Assembly: GCA_937899835.1 (NCBI GenBank)
Contig: CALCCE010000188.1
Location: 1-62,933, forward strand
Reading direction: 5' to 3'
Source of the DNA: an uncultured Flavobacteriales bacterium
GTDB taxonomy: Bacteria; Bacteroidota; Bacteroidia; Flavobacteriales_G; Salibacteraceae
DNA: 62,933 nucleotides
Positions 2,710 through 40,695 of this stretch are shown piece by piece. Position 1 is the stretch's first letter. Every line of letters begins with the position of its first letter. The position numbers were made by a program, and so were the translations under genes. The notes under the pieces are model-generated. The model searched no databases. It was not told the origin of the DNA and worked only from the letters and a program-made list of their open reading frames with translations.

Positions 2710-3111
2710 TCAAAGGTCTCGTTCAATCACCACGGTTTCTTCTGCGGTCTGTCCTTCCTCTAAAGTAACGACTCCTTGCCCAATGTATTTTCGATCTACG
2801 GGAATGGCGGTAGTGCCCACAATGGAGTCTTCGGTAAGGGTTACCTTAACATCAACAAACAGCACTGCAGGAAAGTCGAACTCGAAAGAAGCAATACCTA
2901 AGCTATTGGAAGTGGTAGAGTCTCGGACCACACATTGGGGCCCATCACAAAATAGCACTACGAGGGCATTTGGCACTACGCGGTCGTCCTGATCAAGTAC
3001 CAAGACCTCTGCTTTGATCTCTTCTTCCTCGGGTTCGCAGGCTACTGAAAGCACTACTAATAATGCCAACAATAAGCACCCAAACCGTCCCTTCAGGGGG
3101 CCTATATTCAT
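2710..3111 (-). CDS. Small lipoprotein, paralogue C, first gene of the run
   Basis: A 133-residue lipoprotein with signal peptide and Cys25 in LSVAC, followed by an acidic EPEEEEI linker. The mature unit keeps the family outline, AEVLVLDQDDRVVPNALVVL then FCDGPQC then FEFDFPAVLFVDVKV, but lacks the PPNVGF segment of paralogues A and B. It is therefore the most diverged of the three. The start at 3111 follows a minus-strand TATATTTG box at 3169-3176, which makes this the promoter-proximal gene of the lipoprotein run. The common mature length of about 110 residues and the preserved Cys pair suggest one shared small fold. Confidence 0.8.
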   Translation of the reverse strand: MNIGPLKGRFGCLLLALLVVLSVACEPEEEEIKAEVLVLDQDDRVVPNALVVLFCDGPQCVVRDSTTSNSLGIASFEFDFPAVLFVDVKVTLTEDSIVGTTAIPVDRKYIGQGVVTLEEGQTAEETVVIERDL

Positions 3112-3168
3112 GGAGCGAATTAATTTCTTATACTTGCTGAAACGCCCTAAAACGCCCGCGTAGTGCGA

Positions 3169-3176
3169 CAAATATA
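3169..3176 (-). promoter_or_regulatory. -7 box (TATATTTG) for the lipoprotein run
   Basis: An exact TAnnTTTG on the minus strand, 58 bases upstream of the ATG at 3111. A TTTG lies 17 bases further upstream at 3194-3197, slightly closer than the usual 19-21. It lies in the short divergent gap shared with the cyclophilin gene. Confidence 0.5.
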
Positions 3177-3188
3177 AAAAAATAAGCC

Positions 3189-4022
3189 ATGCGCAAAAAC
3201 GCCTTTTCCCTCTCATTCCTGGTTCTTATCTGCTTGGTTTTCACCTCTTTTTCTACCCCTGATGAGCAAGACAAAATGGTTTTGATCAGCACGCCAATGG
3301 GTGATATTAAGGTGCGCCTGTACAATGAAACACCCCTCCACCGCGACAACTTTTTGAAGTTGACCAAGGAAGGTTTTTATGATGGTACGCTGTTTCACCG
3401 CGTCATTCCACAGTTTATGGTACAAGGGGGTGACCCTGATTCTAAAGGTGCCGCTCCCAACGCTATTTTAGGCAACGGTGGGCCCGGTTATACCCTTCCT
3501 GCGGAGCTTAATTCGCGCTTTATTCACAAAAAAGGAGCCCTTGCTGCCGCCCGCTTGTCGGATCAGCAAAATCCTGAAAAGCGCTCTTCCGGTTCTCAGT
3601 TCTACATTGTTCAAGGGCGCACCTACACCCCGGACATTTTGCAACGCATGGTTCAGAACCGCAATTTGCAGAATCGACAAATGGCTTTCCGTAAATTTTT
3701 GTCCAAGCCAGAAAATGCCAACTACGTAGAGCGGCTCAACCGTTGCCAGGCCAACAACGACCAACAGGGTATGGTCACTTTAGAAAAAGAGATTGAACCG
3801 ATGATCGAGCCCGATCTTGCCGCTGGAAAGGTGAACTATACCCAAGAACAAATTGATCTCTATGGCACGCTTGGAGGCACGCCCCACCTGGATGGTGCCT
3901 ACACGGTGTTTGGCGAAGTGGTAGAAGGCCTTGAGGTATTGGATCAACTTGCAGCCGTAACCATCGGCTCCAACGACCGGCCGGCAGAAGATCAAGCCAT
4001 GACGGTAAAAGTGTTGGATTAA
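3189..4022 (+). CDS. Secreted cyclophilin-type peptidyl-prolyl isomerase with an insertion
   Basis: A 277-residue cyclophilin that should catalyse cis-trans isomerisation of prolyl bonds in the periplasm. A signal peptide covers about residues 1-22. The active-site landmarks are FHRVIPQFMVQGGD (Arg71, Phe76, Gln79), QFYI near 137 and the closing HLDGAYTVFGEVVEG (His232). Between QFYIVQG and GGTPHLDGAYTVFG there are about 80 extra, charged, helix-prone residues (roughly 148-225) that ordinary 160-180 residue cyclophilins lack. Similar insertions occur in some Bacteroidota cyclophilins; I infer a client- or partner-binding role. The gene is divergent from the lipoprotein run. Confidence 0.9.
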   Translation: MRKNAFSLSFLVLICLVFTSFSTPDEQDKMVLISTPMGDIKVRLYNETPLHRDNFLKLTKEGFYDGTLFHRVIPQFMVQGGDPDSKGAAPNAILGNGGPGYTLPAELNSRFIHKKGALAAARLSDQQNPEKRSSGSQFYIVQGRTYTPDILQRMVQNRNLQNRQMAFRKFLSKPENANYVERLNRCQANNDQQGMVTLEKEIEPMIEPDLAAGKVNYTQEQIDLYGTLGGTPHLDGAYTVFGEVVEGLEVLDQLAAVTIGSNDRPAEDQAMTVKVLD

Positions 4023-27586: not shown

Positions 27587-28030
27587 TCAGCAATTTTCTG
27601 CCCCCAGAGCAATTTTTTCTACCCTCCGTTGATGACGACCGCCTTCAAATTCATGCTTTAAAAAGGTATCTACAATGGTTTCCGCTACTTCGGGTTCGAT
27701 GTATCGAGCGGGCAGGGCTAATATGTTGGCGTTGTTGTGTAAACGCGCCATTTCTGCAATTTCAGGGGTCCAACACAGGGCCGATCGAACACCTTGATGT
27801 TTGTTGGCCGCCATGTTAATGCCATTGCCGCTTCCACACATTAGTATACCTAAGGTTACTTCTCCAGACTCAACGGCACTGGCCACCGGATGCGCATAGT
27901 CGGGATAATCGGTTGAAGCTTCTGAATCAGTTCCATGATCCTGAATCTGGTGTCCGGCGGCTCTAAGTTTTGCTACAATGCGTTCTTTGAGGGGAAAACC
28001 GGCATGGTCACTTCCCATTGCAATTTTCAT
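27587..28030 (-). CDS. rpiB: Ribose 5-phosphate isomerase B
   Basis: A 147-residue isomerase of the RpiB/LacAB family that interconverts ribose 5-phosphate and ribulose 5-phosphate. Landmarks are the start KIAMGSDHAGFPLKERI, the catalytic Cys in GILMCGSGNGINMAANK (about 61-77) and NNANILALPARYI. The size is normal. The M28 peptidase gene follows five bases after the stop. A minus-strand -7 box lies 40 bases upstream, and beyond it is the 490-base region with origin-like features. Confidence 0.95.
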   Translation of the reverse strand: MKIAMGSDHAGFPLKERIVAKLRAAGHQIQDHGTDSEASTDYPDYAHPVASAVESGEVTLGILMCGSGNGINMAANKHQGVRSALCWTPEIAEMARLHNNANILALPARYIEPEVAETIVDTFLKHEFEGGRHQRRVEKIALGAENC

Positions 28031-28070
28031 AAGCGGTGTGGTGCTACATTAATTGTTCAACAAAGTTAGC

Positions 28071-28078
28071 CCGATTCC
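28071..28078 (-). promoter_or_regulatory. -7 box (TAACTTTG) for rpiB and the M28 gene
   Basis: An exact minus-strand TAnnTTTG, 40 bases upstream of the rpiB ATG. A CAAA (minus-strand TTTG) lies only nine bases further upstream, too close for a -33 element. Confidence 0.45.
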
Positions 28079-28285
28079 TACAGTGAACAAATCCTCAGAA
28101 AATAAGCGGTCGTGAGCAATATTTCAACATTGGTGGTGTTAATTGTGGATAATCGTTGGGGAAAACTCCACAATAAAAATGTTTGCAGGTCTGCACCAAA
28201 AGTTTCAATTATTGAAATCTTCGAGGCTTGCAATTTTTTTGCTTGAGAGTTTGGGAAAAATAACGAACAGGATTTGAACAGGTCT

Positions 28286-28293
28286 TATCTTTG
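28286..28293 (+). promoter_or_regulatory. -7 box (TATCTTTG) in the candidate origin region
   Basis: An exact TAnnTTTG. A five-base-pair hairpin CCGGA-(6 nt)-TCCGG at 28299-28314 follows, and a 31-codon ORF starts 31 bases after the box. It could drive a small mRNA or RNA, or be the distant promoter of the MORN gene at 28525. Confidence 0.4.
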
Positions 28294-28324
28294 CAAACCC
28301 GGAATTTTATCCGGTGAAAACGTT

Positions 28325-28420
28325 ATGAACAACTTGTTTATAACTGCTGTTACCCCTCTTTCCACTAACAATTCAGCACAACAACTCGTTGATAAGGTGT
28401 TGACCAATTCTGAATATTGA
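28325..28420 (+). CDS. Possible 31-residue small ORF
   Basis: ATG at 28325 opens MNNLFITAVTPLSTNNSAQQ and continues to a TGA at 28420. It follows a perfect -7 box with a hairpin in the leader, a layout like the other genes here. Against it: no clear ribosome-binding site and no recognisable similarity. It also overlaps the candidate origin, where chance ORFs are expected. Low confidence. Confidence 0.25.
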   Translation: MNNLFITAVTPLSTNNSAQQLVDKVLTNSEY

Positions 28421-28524
28421 TACACACAAGCGATTCAAAGACAATCTATACACAGTATCAACAGGATAATAACAATAATAATACCTTTAAATATATTCTA
28501 TAGATATATAAACCGTTAGTAACA

Positions 28525-30117
28525 ATGGTTAAAAGAGTTCTTCTTTTCATAGGTGTTTGGTGTTGTATGACACTTGCGGGCTGGTCGCAAAACGACATCA
28601 ATCCAAACGGGCTGAATACCTTCTATCATCCCAATGGTGAGGTGAGCAGTGAAGGCTATATGAAAAACGGCAAGCCTGAAGGTTATTGGAAAACCTATTT
28701 TGAAACGGGCGTCCTGAAAAGCGAAGGTAATCGCAAAAATCACTTATTGGACAGCACCTGGAAGTTTTACACCGAAGAGGGGGTTTTGCAAAAAGAAATC
28801 ACTTATCAGGAAGATAAGCGCAACGGCTTCACCAGCACTTTCTCTACCGAAGGGTTCCTTATCGCTAAAGAAAATTTCAAAAACGATCAAAAGCACGGAG
28901 AGAGTTCCAGCTATTTCCCAAATGGGGGAGTGCGTAAAACGACTCCCTACGAGGAAGGTCGCCGGCAAGGCACCGGTTATGAATATGGTAAAGATGGGAG
29001 AGTGATCAGCATTTTTACTTTTGAAAACAACTATCTACGCCAGCGCCAGGAGATTAACCGCAAGGACCGCCGGGGTAAAAAAACTGGGAAGTGGGTTGAG
29101 TTTTATGAGAATGGTGTGGTTTCGCTGGAAGGATACTACCGGGACGGAAAACGCAACGGTTATTTCCGGGAATACGATCGGAAAGGTGTGATGGTGAGCA
29201 CCACCAAGTGGCGTGACGATGAGGTGGTAACTGATGCGGAAGAGCTCATTAGCCTCGATATTCGAAAAGAATTTTATCCCGATGCCAAGGTGCGTTCCAT
29301 TGGAAGTTTCAAAGACGGCATGCGCGAAGGAGTCACCCGCTACTACGACAAAGAAGGGGCCATCTCTAATTCAAAAATTTACCGGAAAGGCGTTTTGCTG
29401 GGCATGGGCATCGTAGATGAAGGTGGAATCCGGCAGGGAGCCTGGGAAGAATACTATTCGGACGGCAGTTTGCGTGCAGAAGGCGAATACAAGGACGGAC
29501 AAAAGATCGGCCAATGGATTTTCTATTTCCAGAGTGGAAAAATTGCTCAAAAAGGAAAATACATCAGCGGTGAGCGTCCACACGATACCTGGACCTGGTA
29601 TTACGAAAGTGGTCAGGTGAGGCGAGAAGAAAATTATTACCGCGGTTTGGAAGATGGTCGCACGGTAGAGTACAGCGACAGCGGTACGGTACTTACCGAA
29701 GGCGAATACATTGAAGGACTACGCACTGGCGAATGGATTATTGATGTGGGCGATCACCGGGAAGAAGGAAAATACGTTGATGGAGAACGCGATGGAGAGT
29801 GGTTGCACTACTACAAAAACGGCAAACTCAACTTCAAAGGATCCTATGTTGCCGGGATGGCGGAAGGAAAACACACCTACTATCACGAAAACGGTCAAAA
29901 AAGCCTAGAAGGAAAATACGCCAGTGGTATGAAAGAAGGCGACTGGAAACGCTACAACGAGGACGGTACCGTGTTGATCGAAATTCTCTACAAAGACGGA
30001 GAAGAGAAGCGGGTGAATGGAGTGAAAGTAAAAAATTATCAGCCGACTAAAAAGCTGGAAAGAAAGAGCGAGAAGGCCGAAAAAAAGGCGACAGCAAAGG
30101 CTGAAAAAGAAGGTTGA
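28525..30117 (+). CDS. Secreted MORN-repeat (YwqK-type) protein
   Basis: A 530-residue secreted protein with signal peptide (residues 1-22, cleaved near GWSQ). The rest is about 17 tandem units of 20-25 residues of the MORN-2 type, for example FYHPNGEVSSEGYMKNGKPE, YYESGQVRREENYYRGLEDG and YYHENGQKSLEGKYASGMKE. Two spacer segments break the array (about 170-185 and 235-255). The C-terminus is Lys/Glu-rich and low complexity. MORN arrays form long beta structures that bind lipid or protein. The database name toxin-antitoxin YwqK is inherited and should not be taken as function. It may be an envelope scaffold. The histidine kinase gene follows 53 bases later. Confidence 0.85.
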   Translation: MVKRVLLFIGVWCCMTLAGWSQNDINPNGLNTFYHPNGEVSSEGYMKNGKPEGYWKTYFETGVLKSEGNRKNHLLDSTWKFYTEEGVLQKEITYQEDKRNGFTSTFSTEGFLIAKENFKNDQKHGESSSYFPNGGVRKTTPYEEGRRQGTGYEYGKDGRVISIFTFENNYLRQRQEINRKDRRGKKTGKWVEFYENGVVSLEGYYRDGKRNGYFREYDRKGVMVSTTKWRDDEVVTDAEELISLDIRKEFYPDAKVRSIGSFKDGMREGVTRYYDKEGAISNSKIYRKGVLLGMGIVDEGGIRQGAWEEYYSDGSLRAEGEYKDGQKIGQWIFYFQSGKIAQKGKYISGERPHDTWTWYYESGQVRREENYYRGLEDGRTVEYSDSGTVLTEGEYIEGLRTGEWIIDVGDHREEGKYVDGERDGEWLHYYKNGKLNFKGSYVAGMAEGKHTYYHENGQKSLEGKYASGMKEGDWKRYNEDGTVLIEILYKDGEEKRVNGVKVKNYQPTKKLERKSEKAEKKATAKAEKEG

Positions 30118-40650: not shown

Positions 40651-40695
40651 AATTCTTACTCTTTTAAATAAAAAAATATACTATAAAACACTGTA

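Follow-up and report, generated by a model that had tools for sequence, protein, structure and literature searches.

The gene-free interval 28031–28524 of the DNA analysed here is very probably the chromosomal origin, oriC, of this Bacteroidota bacterium. The window, meaning the whole stretch of 62,933 bases, is the entire contig C188 of a 6.9 Mb genome in 307 contigs. The first-pass annotation had named this place a candidate chromosomal origin, and the proposal is supported by the layout of the interval, by its conservation and by a switch of GC skew at the same element in relatives. The anatomy, the single strong match per genome and the position of the skew switch in relatives were obtained directly by computation. 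The architecture is a known one, written in a lineage-specific box spelling that searches with the E. coli box would mostly miss.

The interval spans 494 bases, and its flanking genes, rpiB and a MORN-repeat gene, lie on opposite strands and point apart, as had been described. Its features are listed in Table 1. Elsewhere in the window, small minus-strand ORFs at 1806–2237 and 2298–2726, and a more diverged one at 2710–3216, look by eye like tandem duplicates.

Table 1. Predicted features of the probable origin interval and its neighbours (window coordinates).
Feature	Position	Strand	Remark
rpiB, left neighbour	27587–28030	−	left neighbour in G012 is also rpiB (by eye)
Probable origin interval (oriC)	28031–28524		gene-free, divergent flanks; relatives share the element upstream of their MORN gene
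Exact DnaA box TTATCCACA	28144–28152	−	exact match
Lineage-type DnaA box TTATGAACA	28323–28331	+	matches TTATNAACA exactly
Lineage-type DnaA box TTATAAACA	28335–28343	−	matches TTATNAACA exactly
Weak DnaA box TTATCAACG	28387–28395	−	1 mismatch to TTATNAACA
Weak DnaA box TGATACACA	28418–28426	+	2 mismatches to TTATCCACA
Tandem DnaA box 1 CTATACACA	28446–28454	+	2 mismatches to TTATCCACA; aligned in relatives
Tandem DnaA box 2 GTATCAACA	28455–28463	+	2 mismatches to TTATCCACA; aligned in relatives
GC spacer, bases GG	28464–28465		directly after box 2
DnaA-trio-like repeats	28466–28483	−	NTA repeats conserved in relatives
A+T-rich tract, presumed unwinding region	28467–28526		83% A+T
MORN-repeat gene, right neighbour	28525–30117	+	conserved together with the origin element

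The exact DnaA box that the annotation reported is present and is the sole exact copy in 62.9 kb. Three one-mismatch boxes, two of them adjacent, had been claimed as well. The adjacency is real, at the tandem pair of Table 1, but the mismatch count is not: no box in the interval differs from TTATCCACA by exactly one base, and seven differ by two bases, two of these seven abutting. The adjacent boxes CTATACACA and GTATCAACA become one-mismatch boxes solely under a looser consensus, TTATNNACA; the place and arrangement of the boxes were right, and the count fits that looser consensus alone. Boxes with at most two mismatches number eight in the interval (16/kb, as against 2.67/kb over the window), a cluster above background, and TTATNAACA at no more than one mismatch reaches 12.35/kb within the interval against 0.98/kb outside. 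No better cluster exists elsewhere in the window, where the densest 500 bases are found here, with six boxes, against three at the next listed clear place. In the whole 6.9 Mb genome the tandem pattern TATNNACANTATNNACA has a single occurrence, at the interval; a reversed control pattern also occurs once.

Beyond the tandem pair, the AATAAT-type repeats and A+T-rich DNA that had been noted are present across 28466–28526. The box strand of the repeats reads ATA ATA ACA ATA ATA ATA and the other strand 3'-TAT TAT TGT TAT TAT TAT-5', so that five of the six trios have the middle A and one is without it. The 60-base A+T maximum of the interval begins at 28467, and since the maximum of the window (87%) sits at 40660, the A+T-rich tract alone is not unique to the interval.

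The resemblance to known unwinding elements that had been suggested can be made specific, for the layout is that of the basal unwinding system (BUS) of Bacillus subtilis, a system predicted to occur in 1755 out of 2070 bacterial origins (PMC8287927; PMC6669920). The BUS rule of PMC8287927 combines a DnaA box with at most two mismatches, a spacer of 0–16 bases and at least three 3'-NAN-5' trios. The same paper describes the tandem box pair as the commonest form (57%), not a required one, and 3'-GAT-5' trios, above all beside the boxes, as a preference and not a requirement. The window contains such an arrangement, with a two-mismatch box at 28455, a spacer of 11 and three trios, and it takes the tandem-pair form; when trios are restricted to NTA on the box strand, no other place in the window qualifies. 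The order of elements is the same (box, box, short spacer, middle-A repeats, A+T-rich DNA beyond), as is the polarity, with the middle-A repeats on the strand that runs 3' to 5' away from the boxes. The differences are three. The element's boxes deviate from TTATCCACA; only two or three bases follow the second box; and, where the BUS has mainly 3'-GAT-5', the repeats of the window are of the 3'-TAT-5' type and those of relatives 3'-NAT-5'. The preferred 3'-GAT-5' is absent from the trios of the window, although the trios of several relatives start with CTA, which is 3'-GAT-5'.

The MORN loci of relatives show the same order upstream of the gene: a pair of 9-base boxes, then a short spacer, then NTA repeats. 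Fifteen of these loci were used to build a sequence-only model, R1, which was run on 100 genomes, that of the window included, with stricter filters and the scoring of 59 candidates in every genome. R1 matched 40 of the 100 genomes at E≤1e-3, with a single such match in each. Fourteen of the 40 belong to the training set and 26 lie outside it, the fifteenth training genome (G090) scoring E 0.0019. The window's family contributes 29 of its 35 genomes to the 40. Of the family's other six, G005 and G006 have weak matches of 13.4 and 14.3 bits at the MORN locus, G015 and G020 have weak matches only, away from it, and G008 and G019 gave no R1 match in the genome search. In the genome of the window itself, contig C210 has an additional match, a weak one (E 0.0015), with TAG repeats and no recognisable tandem pair. 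Among the MORN loci of named genomes, some of which overlap the 100-genome set, R1 matched 37 of 80 at E≤0.05, and all 44 rows listed at E≤1 (42 loci) lie on the strand of the matched gene and start upstream of it. The MORN locus of Salibacter halophilus (L176) is among those matched, at 22.9 bits. A DNA search with the whole interval matched 10 of the 100 genomes, and only the match in G017 sits at the element.

Three or more consecutive middle-T triplets, read on the box strand, follow the boxes in 47 of 49 elements; runs of five or more occur in 25 of the 49, compared with a shuffled mean of 5.1. A reversed polarity, in which 5'-TAG-3' repeats on the box strand would form the bound strand, was considered and rejected, as loci L003 and L010 carry CTA TTA CTA there. 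The known trio polarity was kept because the box strands of these two loci fit it and 3'-NAT-5' covers most members.

Alternatively, the element could serve the MORN gene as its promoter or as a regulatory site, with the true origin in another sequence within a few kb. Strong R1 matches do lie directly upstream of this gene in 39 of 40 genomes (within about 1.2 kb of the orthologue, by hand comparison; the exception is G059). Yet about 1 kb separates element and gene in G077, G067, G058 and several named loci, and in G059, G066 and G072 a match that has no listed MORN neighbour still coincides with a skew switch (offsets 1229, 2229 and −12). The conserved part consists of box-like sites and not of a Bacteroidota promoter consensus, and the skew minimum falls at most 400 bases from the element in eight of ten family genomes, as described below. 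A regulatory site for the MORN gene is therefore a highly improbable reading, and an origin that travels with this gene is preferred. The MORN-repeat protein, 45–52% identical across 11 aligned relatives, accompanies the origin, and it could conceivably have a role in replication or segregation. At three loci from some other families (L019, L025 and L030), a gene sits between the origin element and the MORN gene; its translation resembles, by eye, quinolinate synthase (nadA).

The GC skew of the window and of relatives provides a second line of evidence. Along the window, cumulative skew reaches a floor that stays flat between 27010 and roughly 28500, with a mean skew of −0.0122 on the left and +0.0334 on the right. 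Block shuffles reached this difference in 7 of 5000 trials at the fixed split and in 138 of 2000 at the best free split, so that the window skew is by itself only suggestive. With the genome divided among 307 contigs, skew was tested locally in the window, and the chromosome-wide switch was read from two single-contig relatives of the same family. In G001 (4,118,273 bases, outside the R1 training set), ten of ten stretches to the left are negative and ten of ten to the right positive, and the local minimum at 1,861,949 lies 137 bases from the element at 1,862,086–1,862,133. In G012 (5,103,034 bases, in the training set), skew was computed over 20 stretches of 20 kb; the eight up to 1,673,000 are negative, the next ten positive and the last two negative. 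The negative-to-positive change falls at the element (1,672,405–1,672,453); the lowest point of the surrounding 40 kb, at 1,667,171, is 5 kb off.

Ten further genomes of the family, picked for their long contigs, agree. Skew is negative on the left of the element and positive on the right in all ten, compared with 5 of 36 control stretches. With 20-kb flanks, the eight genomes already mentioned place their minimum within 400 bases of the element (G025 and G007 have offsets of −3997 and −15841); with 10-kb flanks nine of ten do so, against none of 36 control stretches at their centres. The annotation had held that a skew minimum at another locus would count against an origin here, and none was seen where the comparison was run (the window floor, single-contig G001 and G012, and ten of ten local family tests). 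The picture is mixed for ten places in or beyond other families, of which five turn from negative to positive and five do not. Those that turn have minimum offsets of −12 (G072), −40 (G087), +1229 (G059), +2229 (G066) and −2553 (G067). No switch was found at the R1 places of G044 (E 2.5e-5), G096 (E 0.02), or G054, G061 and G056 (E 0.01–0.04), those of G061 and G056 being at contig ends; G096, a single contig from another family, has no switch at its MORN gene either. In G080, a single contig with an RDHST-type DnaA, the skew is noisy and crosses from negative to positive a single time, between the 1.755 and 1.95 Mb stretches.

Skew also bears on the more conventional possibility that replication starts at dnaA on contig C238, as in many bacteria, with the cluster in the window serving as a secondary site of DnaA binding. 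Four box-like sites lie within about 450 bases upstream of this dnaA (an exact TTATGAACA, with TTTTCAACA, TTTTCCACA and TTATTAAAA), and the records of G001 and G012 begin at dnaA. These sites, however, include no tandem pair and are fewer than those of the interval, and C238 has no R1 match. Skew across dnaA turns from positive to negative in G001 and is negative on either side in G012, whereas the negative-to-positive switch is at the element in both. A search with PF00308 found one dnaA match per genome in five genomes, and the distance from the element to dnaA is 1.86 Mb in G001 and 1.67 Mb in G012. Such separation is common in Bacteroidetes, according to PMC4755523. An origin at dnaA is accordingly very unlikely, and the interval in the window remains the favoured site. 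The dnaA of G001 lies near the positive-to-negative skew switch, the presumed terminus.

The predicted oriC of Prevotella intermedia OMA14, which used E. coli boxes with one mismatch, and the DoriC Bacteroidetes origins resemble this interval in that boxes cluster where GC skew changes sign, at a distance from dnaA (PMC4755523). The passages of PMC4755523 on these origins mention neither a trio element nor a lineage-specific box.

The spelling of the box in this lineage emerges from 9-mer enrichment over the 450 bases that precede the element, the element excluded, in 44 distinct loci of 49, judged against a second-order Markov expectation. The most enriched 9-mer, TTATTAACA, has 38 copies against 2.28 expected, followed by TTATCAACA (17 against 1.30) and TTATGAACA (11 against 1.07). 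Counted over the full set of 49, TTATNAACA has 81 occurrences spread over 35 loci, against a shuffle mean of 3.2; TTATNCACA occurs 11 times (shuffle 1.9) and TTATCCACA twice (0.2). The density of TTATNAACA is 3.74/kb upstream of the element and 0.141/kb in the remainder of the loci, while that of TTATNCACA is 0.51/kb against 0.094/kb. Enrichment and densities together indicate that the main box of the lineage has A at position 6, some boxes with C6 being retained, such as that at 28144. The box consensus of these origins thus looks, from sequence comparison, lineage-specific. Exact boxes give a less uniform result, their densest 500 bases among 20 stretches being at the element in G001 (four against two), whereas in G012 they do not cluster at the element among 20 stretches. 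GC-rich words top the 7- and 8-mer lists, GACCACG and CCTGCGTG being common to 8–9 of 44 loci; GACCACGC and CCTGCGTG, both GC-rich, are each found upstream of the element in eight loci.

Origins of Helicobacter and Thermotoga have lineage-specific DnaA boxes, and the present origins are like them in that the consensus has moved from the E. coli form. Unlike theirs, the shift here is from C to A at position 6 (TTATNAACA). Among the open-licence PubMed Central papers listed for DnaA trios or boxes in Bacteroidota, none was on TTATNAACA boxes in this phylum; the supplementary tables of PMC8287927 may include origins of Bacteroidetes.

A changed box directs attention to the protein that would read it. 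The residues R-D-H-T of E. coli DnaA are presumably 432–435. Aligned to E. coli domain IV (1j1v), the organism's own DnaA has GGKDHATVLHAC opposite GGRDHTTVLHAC. Residues 432–435 lie within a base-contacting helix of the E. coli protein, according to PMC5043019; residue–base contacts were not found in the open-licence PubMed Central literature. KDHAT replaces the E. coli RDHTT in 21 of the 22 examined genomes that R1 matches at E≤0.1, among which the matches of G060 and G096 are weak and away from the MORN gene. The DnaA of G066 reads RDHST, yet its R1 match shows a skew switch. Among the best 30 DnaA loci, 19 have KDHAT and 11 another form (nine RDHST, one RDHTT and one KDHST). Of the 19 KDHAT genomes, 15 carry an R1 match at E≤1e-3 (the exceptions are G019, G048, G092 and G071), and none of the 11 others does; this association is no proof of cause, given that the training origins of R1 were of the KDHAT type and that shared ancestry is uncorrected. 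A DnaA C-terminal domain (47 bits) is also encoded by a second ORF, short at 139 aa, at G000:C260:19470–19661, and ORFs like it, of about 240 aa, are present in G070 and G079.

A broader proposal, for which the balance stands about even, is that much of Bacteroidota possesses a co-evolved pair. In it, a KDHAT DnaA (R432 to K, T435 to A) would be matched to origins in which TTATNAACA boxes replace TTATCCACA and are followed by 3'-NAT-5' trios, with one origin per chromosome, inherited together with the MORN-repeat gene. If this is true, finders that seek E. coli boxes or dnaA miss or misplace origins across the group.

By analogy with known origins, it may be inferred that DnaA binds the interval, unwinds it and initiates replication there. 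DnaA would occupy the tandem pair at 28446–28463 as well as the boxes scattered through the interval. From this pair it would assemble over the two-base spacer onto the minus strand, along the 3'-NAT-5' repeats at 28466–28483. Stretching of that strand by DnaA would open the A+T-rich DNA as far as the start of the MORN gene, which would then allow the helicase to load and two forks to depart in opposite directions.

As a signature, R1 (a single strong match in each genome, next to a single gene) places oriC on draft genomes of a group whose origins are not marked by dnaA and seldom contain exact E. coli boxes. It would aid estimates of replication rate from metagenomes and the correct rotation of genomes. 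The changed box, together with the changed recognition helix, would offer a natural and testable case of an initiator and its origin changing together.
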